Positions 26,546-45,207 of a stretch of 45,207 bases of DNA are shown one piece after another (position 1 is the stretch's first letter; every line of letters begins with the position of its first letter). The position numbers and the translations under genes are program-made. The notes beneath the pieces are model-generated. The model was not told where the DNA came from. It did not search any database and saw only the letters and a list, made by a program, of their open reading frames with translations. This DNA comes from a virus. The stretch covers positions 1 to 45,207 of IMG/VR virus record IMGVR_UViG_3300001680_000001. The stretch is one strand, 5' to 3'.

Positions 26546-27019
26546 ATGCACTGTACCCGTTGCAGCACACAGCTACTCACCCTGCCTGACCGGCCCGAGT
26601 ACGCATCTATATCTATTAGGTGTAACTGTGGGGCGAGGCACCGTATCTTTTGGAGAGGCGAGCACATCATAGACAAGGTAGGCATCGACGACCTATCCGA
26701 AGCGAGCGTTGAGGCCATCGACAATGACCCATCGCTTAAGCCATCCGACAAGGTGCAGTCGCTTGAGTCACTGATAGCCAGAGCCACGAAGGCACAGGCT
26801 ACATACAGTAGCGGGTACGACATGCTGATACACGTCGCCACGCAGTCACGAGACAGGTGGGCACGAGAGGCACCGAGCACAGGGCACACCCTACTGTGGC
26901 AGATAGCCGACACAGTGAAGCCGAACATAAACGATAAGTCATACGACCCAACCAATAGAACTATTGAGTACGCAAAACTTGTAGCACACACATTAAACAT
27001 GGAGCATTTACTTACATGA
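26546..27019 (+). CDS. Zinc-ribbon protein preceding the helicase (157 aa)
   Basis: Two Cys pairs (MHCTRC at residues 3-6; CNCG about 28) mark a small zinc ribbon at the N-terminus. The remainder is helical and charged with no recognised family. It overlaps the helicase start by ATGA, so it is translationally coupled and may be an accessory or loading factor for the replication module. No good ribosome site is seen at its start. Confidence 0.75.
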   Translation: MHCTRCSTQLLTLPDRPEYASISIRCNCGARHRIFWRGEHIIDKVGIDDLSEASVEAIDNDPSLKPSDKVQSLESLIARATKAQATYSSGYDMLIHVATQSRDRWAREAPSTGHTLLWQIADTVKPNINDKSYDPTNRTIEYAKLVAHTLNMEHLLT

Positions 27020-29115
27020 TCACCTTCCACGAACACAGTATCGTGGGGTCATGGACGAAGGTAGACAAGTGGAGATACCGGCCACGCCGGAAGTCAGAGA
27101 TATGTCCAAGCGAATGGTGGCAAGCACCTGCGACCATTGAGAACATAGTCACCTTCATGCAGGATCCCGAGGCACCCATTGAGGATCTACCCCTCGCATA
27201 CGCTAAACTACAGGAGCTAAACAAGTCACCCCGCCACGTCTTAGATGCACTGCACTACAAGACAATAGCTGAAGACGGCAAGGTAGTTACGAAGCCATCA
27301 ATGAGTCAGCTACTTCTTGGTGCCAAGGCTGAGCGACCGCTGGCATACTTAGATGGGTACATTGACAAGTACACACCGTTCAGTCAGCAGATGATAGGCG
27401 CTGACTTCATATTGAAGATGAAGCGGTGCGGTATCTTCTACGACATGCGTGTAGGTAAGACACTGACCGCCACGCTGGCACTTAAGTACGCACTGGCCAA
27501 CGGCCTTGTTGACCACGGCATCATCATATGCCCACGCATACTGATACACAGCGTGTGGTCCAAGGAGTTGGAGGGTCAGGGCTTGGACGTGTACGTCTTA
27601 GAGAAGGGCAAGAAGGTGGACGACAACACCCTCTCATACGCTGACGCAGACGTGTACATCATGTCCTATGAAACCTTAGTTGGTAGGCTCGACGTGATCA
27701 ACTGCCACCTTGATCCAACGCGCATCATGGTGATCGCTGACGAGACTTCACGCATTAAAAACCCAACGGCTAAGAGAACCAAGGCGTTCCATAAGCTCAC
27801 CTACTACACACCCTACGTTGCTATGCTTACCGGCACACCGATGGAGCAGGGGCCGCAGGATATATGGTCGCAGATGTTTGCCATCGACCGTGGTGCCAGG
27901 CTGTACCCATCGTTCAGTCAGTTCGCCAACAGGTACACGTATCAAGAGGGTAGCAAATACTTCATCAACCCACAGATGAAGCTCCAGCTTGAGCTATCTA
28001 TACAGTCGGGTGCGATGAGGTACGTGAGAAGCGAGGCTGATCAGTTCGCTGGTAAGGACAAAAACTTTAGGTGGATACAGCTAAGCCCATCAGCAGAGCA
28101 AGCGCACGCTACCGACATGGCGATCAACGGGCTGGTGGAAACATTAGGCGGTGATTCACATGAGATTGTTCCACACATACTGACACTGTACGGGTTCCTT
28201 AGAGAGATATGCTGTGGGTACAACAAGGTACGCCTTGAGGAGCTTGGCCCGTACTCACGGTTCAGGTTCGAGTTCGACGCTAAGACCATGTGGTTAGAGG
28301 CGTGGCTTGAATCCAACCCAGGCCAGCCAGCGGTAGTGTTCTGTGAGTTCGATGAGCACGAGCAGATAATAGCTGACATGCTGGAGCGGGCGAGCATCAG
28401 TCACGTATGGCTTAAGCGGGACAGGCGGACGCACGGGGCAGCCGAGTGTGTACGAATGTTCAACGAGGGTGAGGTACACGTCATCATAATGAAGACGACA
28501 CAGGCCGAGGGGATAACCCTCAACCGTATCGCCGCAGTCGATAAAGGTATCGGAGCCTTCCCGAGTATCGTTTACATGGCACCCACCTGGAGCTTGGGTC
28601 GGTTCATGCAGTCGCAGGACAGGTGTGTCGGCACGCACAACAATCGAAACATTATGACACCCATCTACTGCCTGATAACAAAGGGGTCCATTGAAGAGAA
28701 AATAATGAAGGCGCTCAGGCAGAAGAAGAACGTTCAAGAAGCGATACTCAGGGATGCCAGCCGCAAGGGGTTCACCTCATTCTTAGATGAGTTGCGCCTA
28801 ACTCCAGAGGACAAGGCGGGTGATGAATCCTTCGACGCAAAAGAAATGCACTCGCGTAAAGTGCTGGGTCTAAGCCCGGAACTCAAGGCTACCCACACCA
28901 GGGTGCGTAGGCTTTGCCCTGACATAGCCAGCATAGGGAGCTACACTATCGACACTATTGGAAGCAGGCACGACGAGAGTGCCACCGTTAAAAGACTAAG
29001 AGCAGCACAGTATTTGATGGACAAGTATAACGAGAAGGGAGTCCTGTTAAATCCTCACGTTGAGGACAGGCCGGACTACTCAAGAGAGCAGACAGATACA
29101 TGGGAGGAGTCGTGA
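27016..29115 (+). CDS. SNF2-type DNA helicase/translocase
   Basis: 699 residues. The ATP site is YDMRVGKTLTA (about residues 140-150), similar to the SNF2 Walker A of DEAD-like phage helicases. The Walker B equivalent is VIADETSRIKN near 238-248. Motif III-type LTGTPMEQGP lies near 270-280, and the C-terminal lobe has QAEGITLNRIAA near 495-507 and an arginine-finger region QSQDRCVGT near 535. These are superfamily 2 helicase hallmarks. Phage enzymes of this type are thought to act in replication, recombination or fork remodelling. It is followed by a nuclease and SSB-like gene. Confidence 0.92.
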   Translation: MITFHEHSIVGSWTKVDKWRYRPRRKSEICPSEWWQAPATIENIVTFMQDPEAPIEDLPLAYAKLQELNKSPRHVLDALHYKTIAEDGKVVTKPSMSQLLLGAKAERPLAYLDGYIDKYTPFSQQMIGADFILKMKRCGIFYDMRVGKTLTATLALKYALANGLVDHGIIICPRILIHSVWSKELEGQGLDVYVLEKGKKVDDNTLSYADADVYIMSYETLVGRLDVINCHLDPTRIMVIADETSRIKNPTAKRTKAFHKLTYYTPYVAMLTGTPMEQGPQDIWSQMFAIDRGARLYPSFSQFANRYTYQEGSKYFINPQMKLQLELSIQSGAMRYVRSEADQFAGKDKNFRWIQLSPSAEQAHATDMAINGLVETLGGDSHEIVPHILTLYGFLREICCGYNKVRLEELGPYSRFRFEFDAKTMWLEAWLESNPGQPAVVFCEFDEHEQIIADMLERASISHVWLKRDRRTHGAAECVRMFNEGEVHVIIMKTTQAEGITLNRIAAVDKGIGAFPSIVYMAPTWSLGRFMQSQDRCVGTHNNRNIMTPIYCLITKGSIEEKIMKALRQKKNVQEAILRDASRKGFTSFLDELRLTPEDKAGDESFDAKEMHSRKVLGLSPELKATHTRVRRLCPDIASIGSYTIDTIGSRHDESATVKRLRAAQYLMDKYNEKGVLLNPHVEDRPDYSREQTDTWEES

Positions 29116-30065
29116 ACTTAGTAGACCTATTGTTACAATCATCTTGGAAAGAAAAGTTTAGAAAACTCGGAAGCCTATCGCTTAGACAATCATCCATCCG
29201 TCAGTTTCGTTACTGCCCAAAGAAGTTTTATTATGACTACCACCTTAAAGAAGAAAGAGAAGCATACGCTAAGCCCGCATACTTCACGATGGGTTCATAC
29301 TTCCATGCGTATGTCGAAGCATATTCTACTGGTATTACTGTTCAACCTGAAAGGTTGCTACGAGAGTGCTGGGAGAAAGACGGACTTGTAGATGCAGACT
29401 TCAATGAGTGTCTGTTCAAGTTGGACAACAAGGAGATTTACTATGGCGAGAGCCTGAACAGTCTCGCCGTCAAGGTGTGTCAGTACCTCGACAGTTACGG
29501 GTTCGTGCCTGAGCGGGTGGAGATTAAGGAGTCAATGAACCTTGGTGGGTTTACGATAACCGGCACACCTGACCTCGTATCCGTTAACAGGCTGACGGGT
29601 GAGCGGTACATGCTCGACCTTAAGACGACGGGTATGTGGCGTAAGTTCTTCGGCACTGGCTCGCTCAGTGCATCGAAGTACAGCCCGGATCAGATTACGT
29701 TCGCCACCCAGCTACAGCATTACGACTGGATGCTGTACCGGTTGCATGGGATTAAGGCTGACAAGTACGGGTACATCTGCCCGGTCAACTTCATCCCCAA
29801 CACTAAGACTGGCAAGCTACGGGGCGAGCCTATAAGTATAGCCCCGGCTGCGACATTGGAGCAGCTAACTGAGATATATGAGTACGACCTATACGGTACG
29901 GCGAAAGAGATAGCACGATGCGTTGAGATAGATGAGTGGCCGCGTAGTCGGCCCGAGACTTACGGCAAACTTGACTGTGTTTCATGTAGGCACAGAGACT
30001 CATGCCTTGGACAGAGAGAGATTAGAACAACCATTCCATCCTTCATCGACTTCGATGCAGGGTAA
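29112..30065 (+). CDS. Cas4/RecB-like PD-(D/E)XK nuclease with probable Fe-S cluster
   Basis: The GTG at 29112 overlaps the preceding stop (GTGA) with GGAGG close upstream; an ATG at 29100 is the alternative. GTPDLV (about residues 151-156) and LDLKTTG (about 168-174) are the nuclease D...D/E-x-K motif. An N-terminal Cys (RYCPKKFYY, about 35) plus C-terminal CVSCRHRDSC (about 289-298) give four cysteines, the layout of the Fe-S cluster in Cas4 and AddB-like nucleases. Predicted to resect or process DNA ends during replication and recombination. Exonuclease versus endonuclease is not decided by sequence. Confidence 0.9.
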   Translation: MNLVDLLLQSSWKEKFRKLGSLSLRQSSIRQFRYCPKKFYYDYHLKEEREAYAKPAYFTMGSYFHAYVEAYSTGITVQPERLLRECWEKDGLVDADFNECLFKLDNKEIYYGESLNSLAVKVCQYLDSYGFVPERVEIKESMNLGGFTITGTPDLVSVNRLTGERYMLDLKTTGMWRKFFGTGSLSASKYSPDQITFATQLQHYDWMLYRLHGIKADKYGYICPVNFIPNTKTGKLRGEPISIAPAATLEQLTEIYEYDLYGTAKEIARCVEIDEWPRSRPETYGKLDCVSCRHRDSCLGQREIRTTIPSFIDFDAG

Positions 30066-31137: not shown

Positions 31138-31318
31138 AATACCTCTATTCGTTAAGCCAGACAAGAACGGTGACGAGTATATGATCGGTTCGTTTGACGC
31201 TGACTTTGAAATAAATGTCAACCTAAAGCGCGTGACATTTATTATCTTCCACCCAGAGGAAAGCGATGGGCGCATCACCAAGCCAGGCAAACTTGTCATA
31301 CGCCCAAAGGATCCTTGA
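31124..31318 (+). CDS. Hypothetical protein (64 aa)
   Basis: Begins in an overlap with the preceding gene. Predicted small beta barrel (EIPLFVKPDKNGDEYMIGSFDADFEINVNLKRVTFIIF). It ends inside the next gene. Function unknown. Confidence 0.7.
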   Translation: MRQIEIPLFVKPDKNGDEYMIGSFDADFEINVNLKRVTFIIFHPEESDGRITKPGKLVIRPKDP

Positions 31319-31556
31319 CACCATACTTGAGCAGCCCGCTAACTTCGTAAGAGTACACGGTTGCGGGCTGCTCATGCTCAGATTCAAGGTAGGCAAGGTT
31401 CATCACGTCATCATATTTGATGAGAACCTTTTGGTGGTAGAGCACGTACTCTCTAACAGGAGCACAGGCGACTACTACAGGACACCGAGAGGGTGTTCAT
31501 TTACAGATAGAGCACCAAGAGATTGGATATTTAACCATCTATTTAGGGGTAACTAA
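31266..31556 (+). CDS. Hypothetical protein (96 aa)
   Basis: GAGGAAAGCG before ATG 31266. The protein has a helical N-terminus (SYAQRILDTILEQPA) and alternating strands (FVRVHGCGLLMLRFKVGKVHHVIIF). No motif recognised. It overlaps the previous gene by 53 nt and ends 2 bases before the primase-helicase start. Confidence 0.72.
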   Translation: MGASPSQANLSYAQRILDTILEQPANFVRVHGCGLLMLRFKVGKVHHVIIFDENLLVVEHVLSNRSTGDYYRTPRGCSFTDRAPRDWIFNHLFRGN

Positions 31557-31558
31557 GG

Positions 31559-34500
31559 ATGGACTTGAAGCAGCAGATACTTGCAGTAATAAATGTTGAG
31601 CAAGAGGCGAGGGATATACTCGGTAGCAAGGCACCTAACGGAAACTATAAGTGCTACAACAAGGCAGCGCACAACTCGGGTGACAGCAACCCATCGCTAT
31701 CAATGAGCCACGAGGGACTGTACCTGTGCCACGCTTGCGGGGTGAAGGGTGACGTGTTCCAGCTAATCATGGATAGCCGGGGCATGGATAGGAGTGCCGA
31801 CTTCGGCACCCTACTAAAATCACTGGCCGCTAAGTACAGGCTTCAGGCGAACACTGTGCGCTTTGAAAAGAAACGTAAGGTGAAGCAGATCGTCAAAGGG
31901 TTCAAGCTACTTAACGATGCAAAGAAGCAGCAGTGGTTGTTCTCAAGGCGAGGCATACCGGTTGATGTATACCAACACCTGTTCGATAACTATGGGCTGC
32001 ACAACGCAACGGTTGATCGGTACGGCATAGGCTACAAGGACAGGCGGCTTTGGATACCGATACCAGCCAAGGACTTTGAGCGCCAAGAGCCAGTTAAAAC
32101 TAAGATGATCAACGTCCGTAAGCATGACGTAATGAGGGCGTGCTGCAAGTTCGTTGATGGCGGTGGAAACATATTTGACGCACCAGCTATGGACACCAAG
32201 CCCTACTGGGGTGAGCGTGGAGGTAAGACAATAGGTATCCGTGGCCATAACGTGGCCTACGTCTACCCGATGATGCCGCTAACAGTCAACGCAGAAGTGT
32301 GGCTGGTGGGCGGTGAGCTTAAAGCCCTGCTAATGAACCAGATGGGCATACCTGCGATATGCTTCACTGCCGGTGAGGGGCGGTACCACAAGCGACTACT
32401 CAAGCTGTTTACCAACAAGATTGTACGTGTCGTTATGGACATAGACGAGGCAGGAGAGCGGGCCACGTTCGGCCACAAGGACAAGCCTGGCCTGTGTCAA
32501 GTCCTTGCCGACAACGGGGCGAAGGAAGTCTACGGTGGTAGGCTACCGCCCGAGGGTATGCCTCACAACGGAGACATTACAGACTACCTGCGCATACACA
32601 AGTGGGACACCAAGGCACTGGATAAAGTAGAGTGGGAGAAGTTTGAACCGAAGGCGCTGTTTGAAGCTGGGTTCGGTGAGCAGCAGACACCTAAGTATGA
32701 GTTCCCTGACTTCGATGATGTTCCGTTCGGGAGCTTCGCCAACCTACTGAAGGCCAAGAACGGGGGGAAGGTCATCAAGGTACCGTTCGTTGTGGCTGGC
32801 CGAGGGGAGACACCCTACCTCCTACCGTCTGGTGTGTCGGCCTCATGTGAGGCGGGGCAGATGGACGTGCGGCAGATATGCGCCGTGTGCCCAATGTCTC
32901 GGAACAACTTTGAGATGAGCGTTAGGCTGAGCGAAGAGGAACGCATCGACCTCGTGGGTAAGACACCCATGAAGGTTAAGAACGATGTGTCTAAGCGCCT
33001 TGGCTTACCGAAGTGTCAGTACCCAGAGATCAACATTGAGTCTGATAGTGTTGAGCGGCTAATCATCATCCCGACCCTGGATAGCAATAGCTCCGGTGAC
33101 CAGTTCAACTACAGGCAGCACGCCATCTACGCTTTAGGTGACAAGTACCTTACGGAGAACGTGTCCTACGAGGGCGTAGGGATGGTGCTGCCGGAGCCTA
33201 AGAACAGTCAGTACACATGGGCCATGCCTAAGAGTAGGGCGATGGACAACGACATATTCAACTACAGGCACAAGGAGGATATGGCGGTCAAGCTAAGGGA
33301 GGTGTTCCACCACGACACTCTTGAAGAGAAGATTGGCGCGCTGGTTACAACCCTGAAAGACAACCACCTACACAAGCATGGCATCGACAAGCTCATACTG
33401 TACGAGTTGCTTGCGTTCTTCATGCCGTTCGAGTTCAGCCTGGGCAAGTACAGGAACTATAAGGTATGTCCAGAGGTGTGCATCTTAGGTGAGCCACGGT
33501 CAGGCAAGAGCAGCACCGCTAAGGATCTACTCACACTGTTTGGTGCGGGCAGGTACGTGGACGCACCGACAGTAACAACGGTGGGCCTGATAGGTGGTAA
33601 CTCTAACTTCGGGAAGACCAACATCTTTACCTGGGGTGCCATCCCCATGTGCCACCGGGCCATCTGCATCATAGACGAGTGCAACAAGCTAAGCATCGAG
33701 TCCATCGAAACCCTCACGAACCTCCGAAGTAGCGGGGTAGCTGAGAGGACAACAGCTTCAGGCATTAGAAAGATACGCGCTAACGTGCGCTTCTTGTGGC
33801 TGTGCAACCCGAGGGGTGGTCGTTCCTTATCCCACTATGGTTCGCCAGTACGCGCCGCTCAGGAGGTGTTTGGCAGCCCACAAGACCTGGCCCGACTTGA
33901 CCTCCTACATATCCAGAAGGCAGTACAGTCTGCCAGGGAGGTCAACAGCTTCCACAAGTCTACCTCTGAAGACTGGTACAGCAAGAGCCTCGCACGCTAC
34001 CAGCTACAGTGGGCATGGTCACTCAAAGAACATGACGTTGTCTTTGAGGATGAGATTTACATAATGGACAAGGCGATAGACCTCGTCGAAAGATTCAAGA
34101 CCGACCTGCTACCGATGGCTGAAACCAAGTTCAAGATAGCTCGTATCGCAGCCGGGTTAGCGTCACTGGCGTACAGCACAGACAAGTACAACAGGTGCTT
34201 CGTTACTAACGAGGCTGTTGATATGGCTCACGGTCTGCTTGAGGGGTACAAGGAGTACAACATATCAGAGCTAAGTCAGTCGGGCGCAGACATACCAGAG
34301 GGGCTGCGGGCCGTACTGGAACAGCTACCACCCAATGAGGTGCGAAGGCTCAAGGCGTTCATGGTTCAGGACATGCTGACAATGGGCGAGCTAAAGGATC
34401 TCTTCGGCCCCACATGGACGGTAAACTTTATCCAGACCACCTTCTATGAGATGGGTATTGTCACCAGAAGAAGGCAATACTTCATGTGGGACCACCAGCT

Positions 34501-34561
34501 TAGGGGGTACCTGGAGCAGTACATTGAGAATCCTACACGTAAGTGGAGGCCAGACTACTGA
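31559..34561 (+). CDS. DnaG-type primase fused to MCM-like AAA+ helicase (1000 aa)
   Basis: One protein combines domains that usually are separate. Residues 32-60 hold a CHC2-type zinc site (C32, H38, C57, C60). A TOPRIM primase core follows, with LVGGELKALL near 248 and VVMDIDEAGER near 290. Residues about 400-460 contain VIKVPFVVAG...LLPSGVSASC...CAVCP, resembling the OB/zinc part of MCM N-terminal domains. The AAA+ module has Walker A LGEPRSGKSST (about 642), Walker B CIIDECNKL (about 703), a sensor-type WLCNPRGG, and LARLDLLHI (about 780), like the MCM arginine-finger region. A C-terminal winged helix ends the protein (about 935-985). It should prime and unwind at replication forks. Confidence 0.9.
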   Translation: MDLKQQILAVINVEQEARDILGSKAPNGNYKCYNKAAHNSGDSNPSLSMSHEGLYLCHACGVKGDVFQLIMDSRGMDRSADFGTLLKSLAAKYRLQANTVRFEKKRKVKQIVKGFKLLNDAKKQQWLFSRRGIPVDVYQHLFDNYGLHNATVDRYGIGYKDRRLWIPIPAKDFERQEPVKTKMINVRKHDVMRACCKFVDGGGNIFDAPAMDTKPYWGERGGKTIGIRGHNVAYVYPMMPLTVNAEVWLVGGELKALLMNQMGIPAICFTAGEGRYHKRLLKLFTNKIVRVVMDIDEAGERATFGHKDKPGLCQVLADNGAKEVYGGRLPPEGMPHNGDITDYLRIHKWDTKALDKVEWEKFEPKALFEAGFGEQQTPKYEFPDFDDVPFGSFANLLKAKNGGKVIKVPFVVAGRGETPYLLPSGVSASCEAGQMDVRQICAVCPMSRNNFEMSVRLSEEERIDLVGKTPMKVKNDVSKRLGLPKCQYPEINIESDSVERLIIIPTLDSNSSGDQFNYRQHAIYALGDKYLTENVSYEGVGMVLPEPKNSQYTWAMPKSRAMDNDIFNYRHKEDMAVKLREVFHHDTLEEKIGALVTTLKDNHLHKHGIDKLILYELLAFFMPFEFSLGKYRNYKVCPEVCILGEPRSGKSSTAKDLLTLFGAGRYVDAPTVTTVGLIGGNSNFGKTNIFTWGAIPMCHRAICIIDECNKLSIESIETLTNLRSSGVAERTTASGIRKIRANVRFLWLCNPRGGRSLSHYGSPVRAAQEVFGSPQDLARLDLLHIQKAVQSAREVNSFHKSTSEDWYSKSLARYQLQWAWSLKEHDVVFEDEIYIMDKAIDLVERFKTDLLPMAETKFKIARIAAGLASLAYSTDKYNRCFVTNEAVDMAHGLLEGYKEYNISELSQSGADIPEGLRAVLEQLPPNEVRRLKAFMVQDMLTMGELKDLFGPTWTVNFIQTTFYEMGIVTRRRQYFMWDHQLRGYLEQYIENPTRKWRPDY

Positions 34562-35132: not shown

Positions 35133-35427
35133 GAGATTAGCTGCCCCCGGTTCTGGGGCATCAGACAACGAGAGGGCTATAGCTCTCGGGCTACTCGCAG
35201 CAGCGGATAGACTCGACGACTACCAGAGAGATACCCAGTCCCGCATAGACATTAGGAAGGGCGTGTCAGGCAGTAGTTTCCTGGTCACACGAAAGGATGG
35301 CAGGGGTGGCTGCACAATGTTCATGCCTATATCAGAGGGGCGGGCGCTTAACTTCGTTGGTAACAGCCTTCGACTAAACCTCAATAGAATAGAGAGGCGT
35401 ATGGTATGCGAGAAAGTAAACTCGTAA
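35104..35427 (+). CDS. DUF2786-like or unknown protein (107 aa)
   Basis: ATG 35104 with AAAGGATTAAAGAG upstream. The start YEALKRLAAPGSGASDNERAIALGLLAAADRL resembles the short helical domain of DUF2786-type proteins. The C-terminal half is beta-rich and basic (SSFLVTRKDGRGGCTMF). A longer in-frame reading upstream overlaps the previous gene and is less likely. Function unknown. Confidence 0.6.
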   Translation: MNHERYEALKRLAAPGSGASDNERAIALGLLAAADRLDDYQRDTQSRIDIRKGVSGSSFLVTRKDGRGGCTMFMPISEGRALNFVGNSLRLNLNRIERRMVCEKVNS

Positions 35428-35834
35428 CGCTTGTCCAGGCAAGCCTTGAGCGTCAGTTCAAGGGGGCTTGCTACCTGAACAAGAACCACGGCAACCAGTT
35501 CCAAGCTCACGGCAGACCTGATCTGGAGGGCTGCATATTTGGCAGACACTTCGGGTTCGAGCTGAAGGCTGGCTCACGATTCTCACCAACCCAGATAGCC
35601 CACCTAAAAAGAATAACAAAGAGCGGCGGCATCGGAGGTGCGGTTGTCTATGTAAAGAACGACTACTACTACTTAACTGCGTGGCAGGCGGCAGGATACA
35701 GTCTGCGCAAACTCAGCAACTATAAGCGAATACCGTTTGATAGGTACTTGGACTTCTCATTCTTGTACAAGTACCTAAACATTTTCTACTTACACTATCA
35801 TGGAGAACAAAGTGTACTACCTGAAGCTCGATAA
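35406..35834 (+). CDS. VRR-NUC type nuclease
   Basis: 142 residues. HGRPDLEG (about 34-41) and FELKAG (about 51-56) form the D...E-x-K nuclease motif, and SPTQIAHLKRITKSGG (about 60-75) matches the helix after the active site in VRR-NUC enzymes, which cut branched or flap DNA. A Tyr-rich C-terminus follows. It probably resolves replication or recombination intermediates with the helicase and Cas4-like nuclease. It overlaps the preceding gene by 22 nt and the next by 35 nt. Confidence 0.88.
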   Translation: MRESKLVTLVQASLERQFKGACYLNKNHGNQFQAHGRPDLEGCIFGRHFGFELKAGSRFSPTQIAHLKRITKSGGIGGAVVYVKNDYYYLTAWQAAGYSLRKLSNYKRIPFDRYLDFSFLYKYLNIFYLHYHGEQSVLPEAR

Positions 35835-36636
35835 CATTGAACTACTAACAGACGATAGAGTCCTGGTTACCGTTGGTGCCACACAAACAGTCGTGCCACG
35901 CGGGTCGGTTGTGACAAAGGACAAGATGGGGCAGGTGCCCACCGACGTGCGCAGAATCCTTAAGAGGCTGGATGATATAGGAGTTGCCACCTCCCTTATC
36001 GCTGAGCTTGTGCAGCCATCAAACCTGGGGCACCGCAGCGCACCCGAACCCGATCCAACCCCAGAAAAGCCCCCAGAACGGCAGGCTACCCAGCCAGTTA
36101 AGGCATCTCGGCCTGATCTCGCAGCCCTTGGGCTTGAGTCGTCGTCTGAGTTGGTACCACCATTTGAGGTGAACGAGCAGGCTGCACCAAAGATGCCGTC
36201 CGATGAGTTGGGCCGACAACTCAGTGAGCTATGGGAGACGGACCCGCAACAACGGAGGCGCATCATACGGAAGGTCGCTGGGATGATTCGGCTCGACATG
36301 CTTGCAATCAAGAAGTTCTTGAGCGATGACTTGAGACGCGCGGTGGTAGCCCAGTTGATGCAGCGAGATGCACTGAAGACCTCAATCATACCGCCTGACC
36401 TCGCAGCCTTCTTAAGTGACAAGCCGCTACACGAAACGCTTGGCAGTAGGGGCTGGGATCCTGGCTCGCAACGAGTCAAGGATAAGGTGTCTGCAAACTG
36501 GGAAGAATCAAATCGGGTTCAGAACCGGATAGCAGCAGAGGTCGATGACTCAGAGTTCGATCACATGTACCCAACAACTCAGTTCGCGGCAGTGGAAGTC
36601 AACCGGAAGTTTAGCGCTTTAGGTAAGTTAGAGTAG
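35800..36636 (+). CDS. Hypothetical protein, last early gene (278 aa)
   Basis: It overlaps the nuclease gene by 35 nt and, at its 3' end, the oppositely directed ejection-protein gene by 26 bp. An N-terminal beta-rich part (residues 1-45) is followed by a helical segment, a Pro-rich linker (PEPDPTPEKPPER), a helical block (DELGRQLSELWETDPQQRRRIIRKVAG) and a charged C-terminus. No family recognised. Its length and helical bundle would suit a packaging, late-transcription or virion factor, none of which is shown. Confidence 0.75.
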   Translation: MENKVYYLKLDNIELLTDDRVLVTVGATQTVVPRGSVVTKDKMGQVPTDVRRILKRLDDIGVATSLIAELVQPSNLGHRSAPEPDPTPEKPPERQATQPVKASRPDLAALGLESSSELVPPFEVNEQAAPKMPSDELGRQLSELWETDPQQRRRIIRKVAGMIRLDMLAIKKFLSDDLRRAVVAQLMQRDALKTSIIPPDLAAFLSDKPLHETLGSRGWDPGSQRVKDKVSANWEESNRVQNRIAAEVDDSEFDHMYPTTQFAAVEVNRKFSALGKLE

Positions 36637-39600
36637 ACTTTTTTCTTGTCGGGGAGGTCAACTGAACGGTTCTGATCTCACCTATGTTCTTTAAGAACAT
36701 GGCCATGCGGTCCAGTTTAGCCCTATCGTGGTATAGGCGCTGCTCTGGGCCGTACTTGTATACCTTCTCGCCAAGCACCTGACGGCTCAGTGCGATGAAG
36801 TTCAGCTTATTGTCGGGTGAGCTATACACCTTCTTGGCTACGTTGAAGAACCTACTCATTGGCACTTCGGTCAGCAGCCATGCAGCGCGTGGGTCTACCT
36901 TGGGCCTGCCTGTATTTGGGTCAACGCTGTACCCAACCGCTTGCTTCATCCAGGGCGGTGCGTCTTGGAACGACTTGCCCGACTCAAACGATGACCGCTC
37001 ATACAGCTTACTCTTAAGGTGTGTGCCCCGGAAGAAGTCCCTGTCTACAATGTGCTCAAGCGCAGCCGTAAAGCCGAACGGGCCACGAGCCAGAGCCTTG
37101 GATGGGTCACCGCCAAACATCTCATGCCACAAGTTCATCGTGTCTTCTTGAACGAACCCGTACCCGGTCTTAACCTTGACCTCTTTCTCTTTAGTCTCTG
37201 GGTTGTAGGTGACGCTGATGGTCTTGAGCCTGTTCGACAACCAATCAGGGTAGTCAGCAGGGTCAACGTCCTGGTGTAAGTTCTGGTTATTGATGAACTT
37301 GTATGACTGAGCTACCCGCCCTGGATTCTGAATGAACGAGTCAGCCGATGTCAGTAGCGCGTGCTTCGTCCAAGTATAGAACGGCATCATGCGTTTAATG
37401 ACTCGGCGCTCAACCATCGAAAGGTTCGCGTAGTCGAACAGGTAGTCCTTCACAGCCTTAGCTGCCATGCCCAGGCTGCCGGTTCGCTGAGCCTCAATGG
37501 TGAACAACATCAGTCGCGTTGGTATCTCCGAAGCCAACTCACCAGCACGAAAAGAGTCCCGTGCGAACACAGCGTTAGCTGGATTGATCGCCTCCTTCCA
37601 GCCCACGTCAGCCTTCAGGCCCATCCTCTCACCCATGGCAAGAACCTTAGCGCCACCCTGCTTGAATATCTCTTCACTAACGAAGGTGCTGAACACACCG
37701 CGCCGCGCTGCCTCGTGGGCCATCTCTTCAACGGTCATCTTCATACCGCCAGCCAGTTTAATCTCGTGCTTGGCCAGCTTCTCCAGGTTCCTATAGCCGT
37801 CACCAAGTGCAAGCCTCGTCGCGCCACCACCCGCGAGAGCGCCAGCAACGAAGCCCTCAGCACGGTGGTCGTCTGCCATCAACGCACCAGCAGTACCGCC
37901 AGCTACAGTTTGAGTAGCAACTCCGCCCTCTGCTATGTTCCGCAGACCGCCCCGCATGGCCACACCGGACCCAGCGCCAACCGCAGCACCACCTAACGCA
38001 CCAGTCAGAGCACCACCGACTACCTTACCCGCTCCTCGCAAGAGGGACGGGTCTTCTCCGTTCCACTCCTGCATACCACCAATAATACCGCCAGCAGTAC
38101 CACCGGCATACGCCATGAACGCAGCCTGAGACTTGGGGAGGTGCGTTATGTCGATAGCCTCCTTGCTTAGAACATAGGTGAGCGTCTTGAGAAACGCGCC
38201 CTGGTGAACAGGGTTAATGATCCCGATGCCAACCTTCAGGTAGGTCAGCGCCACGTTGGTCACGCCGTTCCGCATGTAGAACTCAGGGAACACCGCCATC
38301 AGCGGAGCCTTAAACATGTTCTGCATACCGTCGTACATGCGCATCAGCTTGCCAAGCTCAGGCCCGTACAGGTTTTGTTCAACACCGTCCACCAAGTGAG
38401 CGATACTCCTCGGTAGATAGTACGCAGCAGAATCAGGAGTAAGAACCTTCTCACCAGCGGTCTGAACAAACGGACCAAACGTGCCGGGGGTCCGCTCAAC
38501 ATCGAAACCTTTGCCGATAACCTCTTCGCCTGGCCGAGCTAAATCCTCAGTGAACTTGCCGCCTGGCTTGAACACGCGAGGCTCAGACGGTAGGGCGGAC
38601 ACGCCGCGCACTGTGGTTGACTCCCAACCTTCTTTGTTAGCTTTCAGAACCCTATCTTCAGCGAGGTGCCAGCGCCCAGAGTAAACAATAAAGTCATCGC
38701 TAAGCACCTCCCCTTGCCGACCATGTTGTTTCGCCAATCGTTCCAATATAGAGATCATCTGATCGCGTTCTGCGTCTGTCATCTTTTTAACAAACTTGGC
38801 ACTATCGGGGGTGCCGATAACTGTTTTCTTTGAGGTGTCTATACCCATCTGCTGAGCAACACTATGGAGTTCTTCCATCTCCCCGCTTGTTAGGCCGGAC
38901 GGACCCTTTGCCCACGCATCGTCACCCTTTGCCGTTAACCGCTCATCAATAAGTTTTCGGAACTCTGTGCCATACGCCTTTAGTGCTTTTTGCCCCCTGA
39001 AGGTACCGGTTGCAGAATAAAATGGGCGAAGAAACTTATCTACTTCTGGATACGTTTGCCTCATTTTCCAAACAGCTTCCCCGGTTTCATCCCCAAGGTT
39101 TTCTGCTGCCTTTCGTAGCCTATCGTGAGGACTCCATTCCCCAGATAGCTCCATCTCTTTTATGGCCTGTTTGCGTAACCCTGCCCCGCTACCATCTACC
39201 TTCTTAAGTGCTTTGTCATACGCGTCTTTGTTCTTCTTTGTTGGAAAACGCAGGTACTCACTGTGCTTTTTAGCAAGACGCTCTTTAGCTTTAAGCTCCT
39301 TGATTGATTTCTTTCTCTCAATCAAGGCTTCTTTGACTGGCTTGCGGAGGTCTTGTATCTCGCTAAGCTCCTTGTTTATCTCACCGTACTTACCGTGCTT
39401 TTCTTCAAGGACGCGCTTGGCTTCGCGTAGCTTCTTTGTCTCACCCATAGACTTGCGCCACTCAGGGGTGTTGCGCTTAAGGCTTTTACGCGCCACCGTT
39501 CCTGCGCCTATCCCGCGATTAAGGGCTTGAAGGCGGTCACGCGCACGCTCAAGTTTGGCAGATTTGCGCGCATGTTTACCAAGCGCAGCGTTCAGGTCAG

Positions 39601-42241
39601 CGCCCCGACCAGCTAACACTTCACGCTCTTTCTGTAGGCCGCTAAGAACGTCGTCAACATTGGTCTTAACTGCGGAGGGCCGGGCACCCATTGGGGATGC
39701 AAACTCCACCCTAACCATTGGCTCGCCGGTCAACTCCATGTACCTGCCACGAGCGGAAGCGTCACCATGGTGCAGTGAAAGGAAGTTCTGTAGCCGGTCT
39801 GCTTCTGTAGCCGTCAGGTCGTCCAGCGTTTTCTTGTTGAACATTACGTCGAGCAGTTGCTTGGATTCTTCTGGCTCAAACCCAAAGCCACGCCCCTTTG
39901 ACCTGCCAAGCATGGATCGAATGTCGTCCATAACGTGCTTACCGGGCTTTGTTACGTCAGTTAAAATCCCCATCTTCTGACGGTATTGGATCGCCCTGGT
40001 AACCAAATCCTCTGGAAGCTGAGCCGCCTTCTTTAGTCCAGTCACAGGCTCCTTAAGTTTAGCGATCAGATCCTTGTATACTTTCGGTGGCTTGTTTGGG
40101 TTCCGTAGCCCAGCCTTGATCATCTTCTCAAGGTCTGGCATAAGGCCAAGCAAAGGACCAACGCCCTTCTTCCGTAGCTCTGCATCAAACTGTTTAATCG
40201 CCCTAACCATGTGCTTAAGCGGAACCTGATCGAACGGGTCACCCGTCATAATCCCACGGATGGCCTTCATCGCATCTACCTCTCGACTCTCGTTGTCGAA
40301 GGTGGACTTGAATACCCTTTTAACATCTCCGGTGTAGTTCTTTAGATGGTCGGTGAGCCAGGGTGCGTCTACTGCACGAGCCTCCCTGCCGGTCGTAAGC
40401 CACTTAAGTACACGTAGGTTCTGTTTGGTGTCACCCTCCTTAAAGCCCCACTTCTTTACGCTGATTCCCTCATGTGCGTAGAACTGGGTCAAGTCAGATA
40501 TGTCAGCGATAGAGTCCCGAGTCTCCACCATGCGCTTACGGTACGCTGCCGGTATGCTGGCCCCAGCCTGTGCGATTAGGGAAGCAGGAACCCCGTGGGT
40601 AGCCTGCATCTCCATGTAAAACTTCTGGCGGTTAACCATCTGGATACTTGACAACTTGCGCCGCATCAAGATGTTGTAGATGTTTTCCTCAACAGCCTCG
40701 TCTGGCATGATTGCCTTCAGGTCGCTGATTGTAGACACCTGCCTGTGCATACTGTACGCGTTGCCGCCAGAGGATAGGCCACGATCTTTCTTGATCTTCT
40801 GGAACATCGCTATCTTTGCGTCATCACCACTGAACATGTGGGTGACGTAGTTGTCGATCACGTTGTTTAGTACGCCGTACTTCTGTTCCTCTTGGGCGAT
40901 GTCGTCAAAGATGGCCTTCGCTTTGTCTGCCGCATCAAGTAAGTGAGGGGCGTAGTTGTGCTCAATAACATCGGCTGAGTTTTTGGCGGTCTTGTCGAGT
41001 CTGGCTTCCAGTATGCTGGTCACCGTCTTAGCTTCGTCGTCTGTTAAACCCTTAAACTCTTCCGCTATTTGCCTCGTCCACTGTCTACGCTCGTTGTTGA
41101 TCGTGTCGGTCATTACACCAAACAGAAGGCGGGAGTTATCGTCCATGCCCCATGTCTTGTTAAAGACCTTCATTGAACCATGAAGCCAGTTACCGTACCA
41201 CTTGTCCTGTGGGATAGATTCAAGTTGACGACGTAACGCTGCGCCACCAATACCTATCTCTCTTAAATGAAGAGGTGTCGCCTCCTGAAACATCTGGCCT
41301 GGGACCGGAAAACCATCAGGGGCCGCGATCTTCATGGCCCTGCGTGCCTTGGTAACAACGCGCTTGTCAGCCTCCCATGCCAGCTTCGCCAGCCTCGGGT
41401 AGTTGTCTATCATGTGTTCGGCGGCACGGTCATTTAAGAGTAAACGAGAGCGGGTGGCAGCCAAGGTGGAGCCTACTGCAACTTCTTTTGCAATCTCCTC
41501 CTCAATCTTTGGTAGCAAATCCTTGACCGCCTGCTTGTGGACTTGGGTGCCCCAACGGGAGAGGGTCAACTCAGCGCCCTGCTTGCCAGCTTCGGCAGCG
41601 ATGTCGTCACCTAAAATCCGAGGCAGTACCTTGCTTGCTGACTTCAAGGTTATCTTGGCACCGGCACCTGTTCCAAATGTTAGGTACGTCGCTGGGTCAA
41701 GAGCTACGTCCAGAGCGAACGAGCCAATACCACCAGCCGACATGTTGTACTGCTCGCCAAACACGTCGGCAAACATTGTGCGCTCACGGAACGCCTTAGA
41801 GAAAGACGACGGGCTGAACACAGGCAGGAACCTGACCGCAGCCTCTTCCCATGCAGACGCTTCGCCGCTCTCCCTGTCCTCGCTTACGGCCCGGATGGCC
41901 TCATGGCGAGCCTTGGTCATCGCAGCAGCGGCATAGTTTCCAAGCGATAGAACATCAACGAAGGTCTGAAGCCCAGACTCGGATGCCTCGATACCAGTTA
42001 CAGCCTCAAGAGTACGGGCAAAGATGCCAGTGTCTTCTTGCTCATACGCGTTCATCGCGTCATCGGACGAGATAGCTCCGCGTGAGTACGCCTGCTGCAA
42101 GCTGAGCCGGTGACTGGCGCGAGCCTTGTCGTTTACCGGGTCGCCAGTACGTTCAAACTCAGGCAGGTCTAAGCCTTTAAGTAGGTCTACGTCCGAGTTT
42201 GTGAACTGTACGTCTACTAAGTCTCGTGGGTCTACCGGCAT
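36611..42241 (-). CDS. Giant internal virion (ejection) protein, 1876 aa
   Basis: Last gene of the late block, coupled to the preceding gene by TAATG. Its size and place after two smaller ejection proteins match the large internal proteins of T7-like podoviruses, which are expelled into the host envelope to form the DNA conduit. Residues about 880-1110 are a Lys/Glu-rich helical block (visible in DNA as a locally AT-richer part near 38.9-39.6 kb). Residues about 1360-1480 are Gly/Ala-rich with possible membrane-inserting stretches (AGGTAGGIIGG, GALTGALGGAAVGAGSG). A C-terminal motif near 1680, KDYLFDYANLS...RVIKRMMPFYTW, is characteristic of such proteins in marine podoviruses. No transglycosylase motif was found. 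Confidence 0.8.
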   Translation of the reverse strand: MPVDPRDLVDVQFTNSDVDLLKGLDLPEFERTGDPVNDKARASHRLSLQQAYSRGAISSDDAMNAYEQEDTGIFARTLEAVTGIEASESGLQTFVDVLSLGNYAAAAMTKARHEAIRAVSEDRESGEASAWEEAAVRFLPVFSPSSFSKAFRERTMFADVFGEQYNMSAGGIGSFALDVALDPATYLTFGTGAGAKITLKSASKVLPRILGDDIAAEAGKQGAELTLSRWGTQVHKQAVKDLLPKIEEEIAKEVAVGSTLAATRSRLLLNDRAAEHMIDNYPRLAKLAWEADKRVVTKARRAMKIAAPDGFPVPGQMFQEATPLHLREIGIGGAALRRQLESIPQDKWYGNWLHGSMKVFNKTWGMDDNSRLLFGVMTDTINNERRQWTRQIAEEFKGLTDDEAKTVTSILEARLDKTAKNSADVIEHNYAPHLLDAADKAKAIFDDIAQEEQKYGVLNNVIDNYVTHMFSGDDAKIAMFQKIKKDRGLSSGGNAYSMHRQVSTISDLKAIMPDEAVEENIYNILMRRKLSSIQMVNRQKFYMEMQATHGVPASLIAQAGASIPAAYRKRMVETRDSIADISDLTQFYAHEGISVKKWGFKEGDTKQNLRVLKWLTTGREARAVDAPWLTDHLKNYTGDVKRVFKSTFDNESREVDAMKAIRGIMTGDPFDQVPLKHMVRAIKQFDAELRKKGVGPLLGLMPDLEKMIKAGLRNPNKPPKVYKDLIAKLKEPVTGLKKAAQLPEDLVTRAIQYRQKMGILTDVTKPGKHVMDDIRSMLGRSKGRGFGFEPEESKQLLDVMFNKKTLDDLTATEADRLQNFLSLHHGDASARGRYMELTGEPMVRVEFASPMGARPSAVKTNVDDVLSGLQKEREVLAGRGADLNAALGKHARKSAKLERARDRLQALNRGIGAGTVARKSLKRNTPEWRKSMGETKKLREAKRVLEEKHGKYGEINKELSEIQDLRKPVKEALIERKKSIKELKAKERLAKKHSEYLRFPTKKNKDAYDKALKKVDGSGAGLRKQAIKEMELSGEWSPHDRLRKAAENLGDETGEAVWKMRQTYPEVDKFLRPFYSATGTFRGQKALKAYGTEFRKLIDERLTAKGDDAWAKGPSGLTSGEMEELHSVAQQMGIDTSKKTVIGTPDSAKFVKKMTDAERDQMISILERLAKQHGRQGEVLSDDFIVYSGRWHLAEDRVLKANKEGWESTTVRGVSALPSEPRVFKPGGKFTEDLARPGEEVIGKGFDVERTPGTFGPFVQTAGEKVLTPDSAAYYLPRSIAHLVDGVEQNLYGPELGKLMRMYDGMQNMFKAPLMAVFPEFYMRNGVTNVALTYLKVGIGIINPVHQGAFLKTLTYVLSKEAIDITHLPKSQAAFMAYAGGTAGGIIGGMQEWNGEDPSLLRGAGKVVGGALTGALGGAAVGAGSGVAMRGGLRNIAEGGVATQTVAGGTAGALMADDHRAEGFVAGALAGGGATRLALGDGYRNLEKLAKHEIKLAGGMKMTVEEMAHEAARRGVFSTFVSEEIFKQGGAKVLAMGERMGLKADVGWKEAINPANAVFARDSFRAGELASEIPTRLMLFTIEAQRTGSLGMAAKAVKDYLFDYANLSMVERRVIKRMMPFYTWTKHALLTSADSFIQNPGRVAQSYKFINNQNLHQDVDPADYPDWLSNRLKTISVTYNPETKEKEVKVKTGYGFVQEDTMNLWHEMFGGDPSKALARGPFGFTAALEHIVDRDFFRGTHLKSKLYERSSFESGKSFQDAPPWMKQAVGYSVDPNTGRPKVDPRAAWLLTEVPMSRFFNVAKKVYSSPDNKLNFIALSRQVLGEKVYKYGPEQRLYHDRAKLDRMAMFLKNIGEIRTVQLTSPTRKKSTLTYLKR

Positions 42242-45069: not shown

Positions 45070-45207
45070 TTATACCCCCAAGTCCGGGTCAGCCCCGGTG
45101 ACCAGTTGAACTTCAGCTTGCACTTCGGACAATGTTTGTCCATAGAAGAACTCTACGCTAATCGACGACGACTCTATCAGATTTGTAACAAGAGCATCGC
45201 CGCCAGG
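45070..45207 (-). CDS. C-terminal end of the fibre-like gene (3' part across the junction)
   Basis: Continuation of the gene that starts at 1432. The last 15 codons plus stop lie between 45116 and 45070; the 91 bases beyond repeat the left edge. The product ends ...SEVQAEVQLVTGADPDLGV and its TAA is followed immediately by the ATG of the first ejection protein. A different frame here yields an apparent CxxC peptide (start at 45143), which is a shadow. Confidence 0.88.
   Translation of the reverse strand, partial: PGGDALVTNLIESSSISVEFFYGQTLSEVQAEVQLVTGADPDLGV
45117..45207. repeat. Right copy of the 91-bp terminal overlap
   Basis: Identical to 1-91. It lets the sequence be closed into a circle of 45,116 bp with one uninterrupted gene across the join, consistent with circular permutation and headful packaging, but not proof of it. 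Confidence 0.95.

Follow-up and report, generated by a model that had tools for sequence, protein, structure and literature searches.

The open reading frame at 31559-34561 (+ strand) of the window, a 45,207-nucleotide virus sequence (IMG/VR record IMGVR_UViG_3300001680_000001), encodes a 1000-residue protein in which a DnaG-type primase is followed, in the same chain, by an MCM helicase. The evidence as a whole is best explained if this single-chain primase-helicase acts as the replicative helicase of the phage, which we consider probable. The gene is a single uninterrupted ATG frame of 1000 codons, and a relative of the same length is 71% identical to it; one clean frame and an equal-length relative rule out an origin by artefact or read-through.

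For the analysis we used a family set of 65 full-length members, comprising the window protein and proteins from IMG/VR contigs, on which the family profile and all residue counts are based. When this profile was compared with all PDB chains, its N-terminal half matched DnaG primases and its C-terminal half matched MCMs only, among the matches listed. An AlphaFold2 model built with the 65-row alignment had a mean pLDDT of 83.4 and a pTM of 0.57, a value at which the predicted positions of the domains relative to each other are not trusted. NCBIfam gave a weak dnaG match to residues 42-163, and the PHROGs search matched residues 398-877 to phrog_18685 ('unknown function', 1.4e-36). The first-pass annotation had proposed a fusion of a bacterial-type primase and an MCM in a single chain, and the reading frame, the family profile and the AlphaFold and Foldseek results bear this out.

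The DnaG-type primase half

The protein begins with a CHC2-type zinc domain (C32, H38, C57 and C60; 31559-31852, +), followed by a DnaG-type RNA polymerase/TOPRIM core at residues 120-362 (31916-32644, +). The zinc domain scored below the cut-off of Pfam PF01807 in the protein scan (21.3 against 24.9 bits) and above it in the genome-level scan (25.6 bits) and in relatives. Its ligands are conserved in the family, with C32 and C57 present in 65/65 members, H38 in 60/65 and C60 in 47/65. The core was assigned from profile matches to 2au3, 5guj and 1nui, from alignment with T7 gp4 and from secondary structure; the first ~310 positions of the family profile matched Aquifex DnaG (2au3) at 1.7e-26 and T7 gp4 at ~1e-9. 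The four members of the window clade carry an insertion of about 25 residues ahead of the TOPRIM core (approximately residues 195-217; 32078-32227), which is absent from the other members.

Alignment with T7 gp4 placed TOPRIM motif IV at residues 251-255 (32309-32323, +), where the window protein has GGELK, the T7 protein EGEID and the canonical form is EGExD. The DxD aspartates D294 and D296 (T7 D207 and D209; 32438-32446, +), the third TOPRIM acid D339 (T7 D237; 32573-32575, +) and E253 (T7 E159) are kept and are invariant in all 65 members, but E157 and D161 of T7 are replaced by G251 and K255. The window protein thus has four of the six catalytic acids of T7 gp4 and lacks the full set. Lee and Richardson are said to have found in 2005 that six acidic residues are needed in the T7 primase. 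Because the equivalents of E157 and D161 are missing, primer synthesis by the window protein is uncertain. The same two acids of motif IV distinguish it from bacterial DnaG, with which it shares the CHC2 zinc domain and the TOPRIM core. Bacterial DnaG also has a DnaB-binding C-terminal domain, whereas in the fusion this domain is lacking and the MCM follows directly after the primase. The first-pass description of the zinc and TOPRIM modules as bacterial in type holds by profile, zinc site and DxD motif, but the active site is non-canonical. We conclude that the N-terminal half is DnaG-type by descent, with a putative primase activity.

Across the family, motif IV reads EGExD in 41/65 members, which retain all six acids, AGExD in 8/65 and GGExK in 16/65, the last being the window protein and 15 relatives. 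G251 and K255 always occur together, and 12 of the 16 GGExK members also have a Walker A of the form GDSSQGK and an EE Walker B. The joint loss of both acids would be expected if the GGExK subgroup had given up primer synthesis and kept its TOPRIM domain to bind nucleotides or DNA, to load the ring or to hand over primers, with the host DnaG making the primers. There are precedents for such roles: animal Twinkle is still a helicase though its primase motifs are lost (PMC3610141), and residues of the T7 primase domain also count in hexamer loading (PMC9198812). On the other hand, E253, D294, D296, D339, C32 and C57 are invariant within the subgroup, which suggests continued metal-dependent chemistry, and neither a second DnaG zinc domain nor a Prim-Pol was found in the 12 searched genomes with a GGExK-type fusion. 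Loss of priming in this subgroup is in our judgment a serious possibility, to be held tentatively.

The MCM half

The C-terminal half consists of an MCM N-tier at residues 395-565 (32741-33253, +), formed by an OB fold with an inserted zinc site (C430, C441, C444 and C486), an AAA+ motor at residues 573-870 (33275-34168, +) and a winged-helix-like domain at residues 914-990 (34298-34528, +). The motor carries Walker A (GEPRSGKS, residues 644-651; 33488-33511, +), the Walker B region (ICIIDE, residues 702-707; 33662-33679, +), sensor 1 N750 (33806-33808, +) and the arginine finger R779 (33893-33895, +) in ARLDL, which corresponds to the sRFD-type motif of MCMs. R862 (34142-34144, +), which is R in 60/65 and K in 5/65 members, is by position the probable sensor 2. 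Since G649, K650, R744, N750 and R779 are present in 65/65 members and E707 in 64/65, the motor looks intact with respect to Walker A and B, sensor 1 and the arginine finger.

The Pfam MCM model (PF00493) matched residues 632-785 with 26.4 bits against a gathering cut-off of 23.3. This match by itself is unspecific because the model also matches bacteria such as E. coli, and the MCM assignment therefore rests on profile, structure and control comparisons. A margin of just 3 bits, with a model that also matches bacteria without MCM, could indicate that the C-terminal half is an AAA+ protein of the Mg-chelatase/RavA/YifB type, a DnaB or an SF3 helicase with only a resemblance to MCM. However, positions ~500-840 of the family profile matched MCMs, with no other AAA+ protein among the PDB matches listed, and a PDB search with a smaller profile likewise gave only MCMs among the AAA+ matches listed. 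Structure prediction, proposed in the first-pass annotation as a check, led to the same result: a Foldseek search of the PDB with the AlphaFold model gave an MCM chain for each of its top 50 matches, with alignments spanning 544-800 columns.

As profile-profile controls we used seven MCMs of archaeal viruses and plasmids, and E. coli RavA and YifB as the nearest non-MCM AAA+ types. The C-terminal half matched the archaeal MCMs with 99.6% over 525 columns; the partial match to YifB reached 86% over 138 columns and that to RavA 7%, and an Mg-chelatase/RavA-type identity was rejected on this comparison. An SF3 helicase gave no match in the Pfam, PHROGs and PDB profile searches, and a DnaB/SF4 identity was rejected, with no PF03796 match in 49 records. 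Placement in DnaB, SF3 or another AAA+ clade, which the first-pass annotation had named as the outcome that would overturn its proposal, was thus not what we found, and we consider a non-MCM origin of this half very improbable.

The OB/zinc tier taken alone reached only 11.6% against the archaeal MCMs in the profile-profile comparison, so its assignment rests on the model, which has the corresponding strands and aligns with MCM folds, and on the alignment of the whole half; its four cysteines are invariant (65/65). The suggested MCM-like OB/zinc region and AAA+ motifs were borne out by profile, controls, model and fold matches. For the suggested winged helix, the fold elements (helices and a beta hairpin) do appear in the AlphaFold model, with a pLDDT of only about 60-75. 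The AAA+ motifs, the OB/zinc tier and the possible winged helix recall cellular and archaeal-virus MCMs, which lack a fused bacterial-type primase; the phage family carries one and, in a tree of the AAA+ region, clustered apart from them on a long branch.

Family distribution, primase exchange and genomic context

The fusion is no isolated case. Among isolates, 51 records encode a relative, and in IMG/VR the number of such stretches is at least 239. The isolates include 36 Microbacterium phages (Krampusvirus and kin), Bacillus phages BSP7 and BSTP, Arthrobacter phage Wollypog, Weizmannia phage Youna2 and Paenibacillus phage API480, among others. Their genes are annotated as 'DNA primase', 'primase/helicase', 'DNA primase small subunit' or 'DNA directed DNA polymerase', and the published description of Krampus mentions a DNA primase alone (PMC7302621). 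A scan of genome contigs gave two distant matches only, with no clear host. Within the DnaG-MCM family the TOPRIM and MCM halves diverged together (Mantel r 0.83), with median identities to the window protein of 24.6% and 23.6% for the two halves; this co-divergence suggests that the fusion is old.

The same MCM half also occurs with a different primase. In Bacillus phage vB_BboS-125 (6831-9911) an archaeo-eukaryotic primase (AEP; PF01896, 3.9e-10) precedes it. The HMM of the MCM half matched this protein, and two relatives as well, over ~600 residues (1e-145 to 1e-151), but that of the TOPRIM half found no match in any of the three. It follows that both types have the MCM module in common and that the primase module was exchanged; on these sequence comparisons, an AEP primase took the place of a DnaG-type primase on one MCM half, or vice versa. 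In a tree of the AAA+ region AEP-MCM was nested inside DnaG-MCM (SH-aLRT 82-84), but monophyly of DnaG-MCM was not rejected when the complete MCM half was put to an AU test (p 0.70), and the exchange may have gone either way. No AEP primase domain (PF01896, PF09250) was found in the window record. An AEP primase also stands before the same MCM half on Bacillus velezensis plasmid p3 (5989-9078); this plasmid, possibly a phage-plasmid, has phage-like genes.

The presence of MCMs in phages and AEP-MCM fusions were already known (PMC5862659, PMC4538821). For a DnaG-MCM fusion we found no open-access description in a literature search that did not extend to a 2016 survey of dsDNA-virus replication (doi 10.1093/nar/gkw322); papers on an abalone virus and on Zblingviridae were false leads.

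The replisome survey covered 49 records, some of them fragments, whose MCM fusion is DnaG-type in 48 and AEP-type in one. A DnaB-type helicase (PF03796) was found in 0/49, the window record included, with a search that does detect T7 gp4, so the MCM is the only recognised replicative helicase in these genomes. PolA was present in 17/49 records (one below the family cut-off) and PolIIIalpha in 21/49 without overlap, so that 38/49 encode one or the other. Because fragments are included, any single absence is weak, but the joint pattern is strong. The window has an exact 91-bp direct terminal repeat (1-91 and 45117-45207) and is therefore probably a near-complete genome. PolA, PolIIIalpha and PolB gave no match in the window or in its two closest relatives.

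This lack of a recognisable polymerase could also fit an accessory repair or restart enzyme, with the host DnaB driving the phage forks. A restart role was proposed for BcMCM (PMC4538821), and the neighbouring genes encode an SNF2-type helicase (27016-29115, +; PF00176, 1.3e-19), a PD-(D/E)XK exonuclease (29100-30065, +; PF12705, 8.5e-14) and, by weak matches, a RecU-like Holliday junction resolvase (35406-35834, +; PF03838 0.0016, below cut-off; phrog_843 4e-4). However, 38 of the 49 surveyed genomes have a replicative polymerase of their own and DnaB was found in none, which in most of the family makes the fusion the only candidate replicative helicase. We therefore regard an accessory role as unlikely.

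No clear origin-like repeats adjoin the fusion gene. An imperfect inverted repeat with 27-nt arms (31313-31389, 74%) lies within the upstream open reading frame and may be due to chance. Further downstream, a 1876-residue open reading frame (36611-42241, -) has no Pfam match and weak PHROG matches to unknown and tail families; its product is probably a large virion protein.

Proposed mode of action and significance

In the replicative role that we favor, six copies of the fusion would assemble into a ring of MCM type and translocate 3'->5' along the leading-strand template, the MCM half standing in for DnaB. In the CMG helicase the N tier of the MCM ring leads at the fork and the lagging strand is excluded. 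If the phage ring has this orientation, with its N tier toward the fork, the N-terminal attachment of the primase modules would place them at the front, beside the excluded lagging strand. The placement would resemble that of Pol alpha-primase on CMG. Phages with a PolA or PolIIIalpha of their own would use this polymerase together with the fusion; in the window phage, which has no recognisable polymerase, that of the host is probably used.

T7 gp4 and Twinkle likewise have a zinc/TOPRIM primase ahead of a hexameric helicase, and the TOPRIM cores align. The helicase of T7 gp4, however, is a DnaB-like RecA-fold enzyme moving 5'->3', while that of the window protein is an AAA+ MCM. The T7 ring encircles the lagging strand and its primase acts on the strand that threads the ring, whereas the ring proposed here would encircle the opposite strand, the leading-strand template. 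The AEP-MCM fusions BcMCM and vB_BboS-125 are similar in that they too come from phages of bacteria and unite a primase with an MCM in a single chain, but their primase is of the unrelated AEP type. The likeness to BcMCM is known by description, and sequence homology was measured with the vB_BboS-125 type, which shares its entire ~600-residue MCM half with the window family (E ~1e-150). BcMCM, from a Bacillus cereus prophage, is a 3'-5' helicase whose ATPase is stimulated by ssDNA; a later study also showed that it has primase activity (PMC4538821).

The wider picture would be that of a widespread phage lineage with an MCM ring in place of DnaB, DnaG-type primases on its leading face, exchange between DnaG and AEP primases and a GGExK branch, to which the window phage belongs, whose TOPRIM primase works with a rebuilt active site; taken in all its parts, we judge the case for it to be evenly balanced.

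Neither the helicases nor the primases of bacterial replisomes are related to those of archaeo-eukaryotic ones. The family described here combines the two replication sets in one chain, within phages of bacteria, and one MCM half occurs with either primase type. If the proposed biochemistry is true, a DnaG-type enzyme could prime without any helicase on the lagging strand, and the family would serve as a compact model, encoded by a single gene, for a primase that sits at the front of an MCM ring. Dozens of cultured phages in which the gene is named merely a primase would then need re-annotation.
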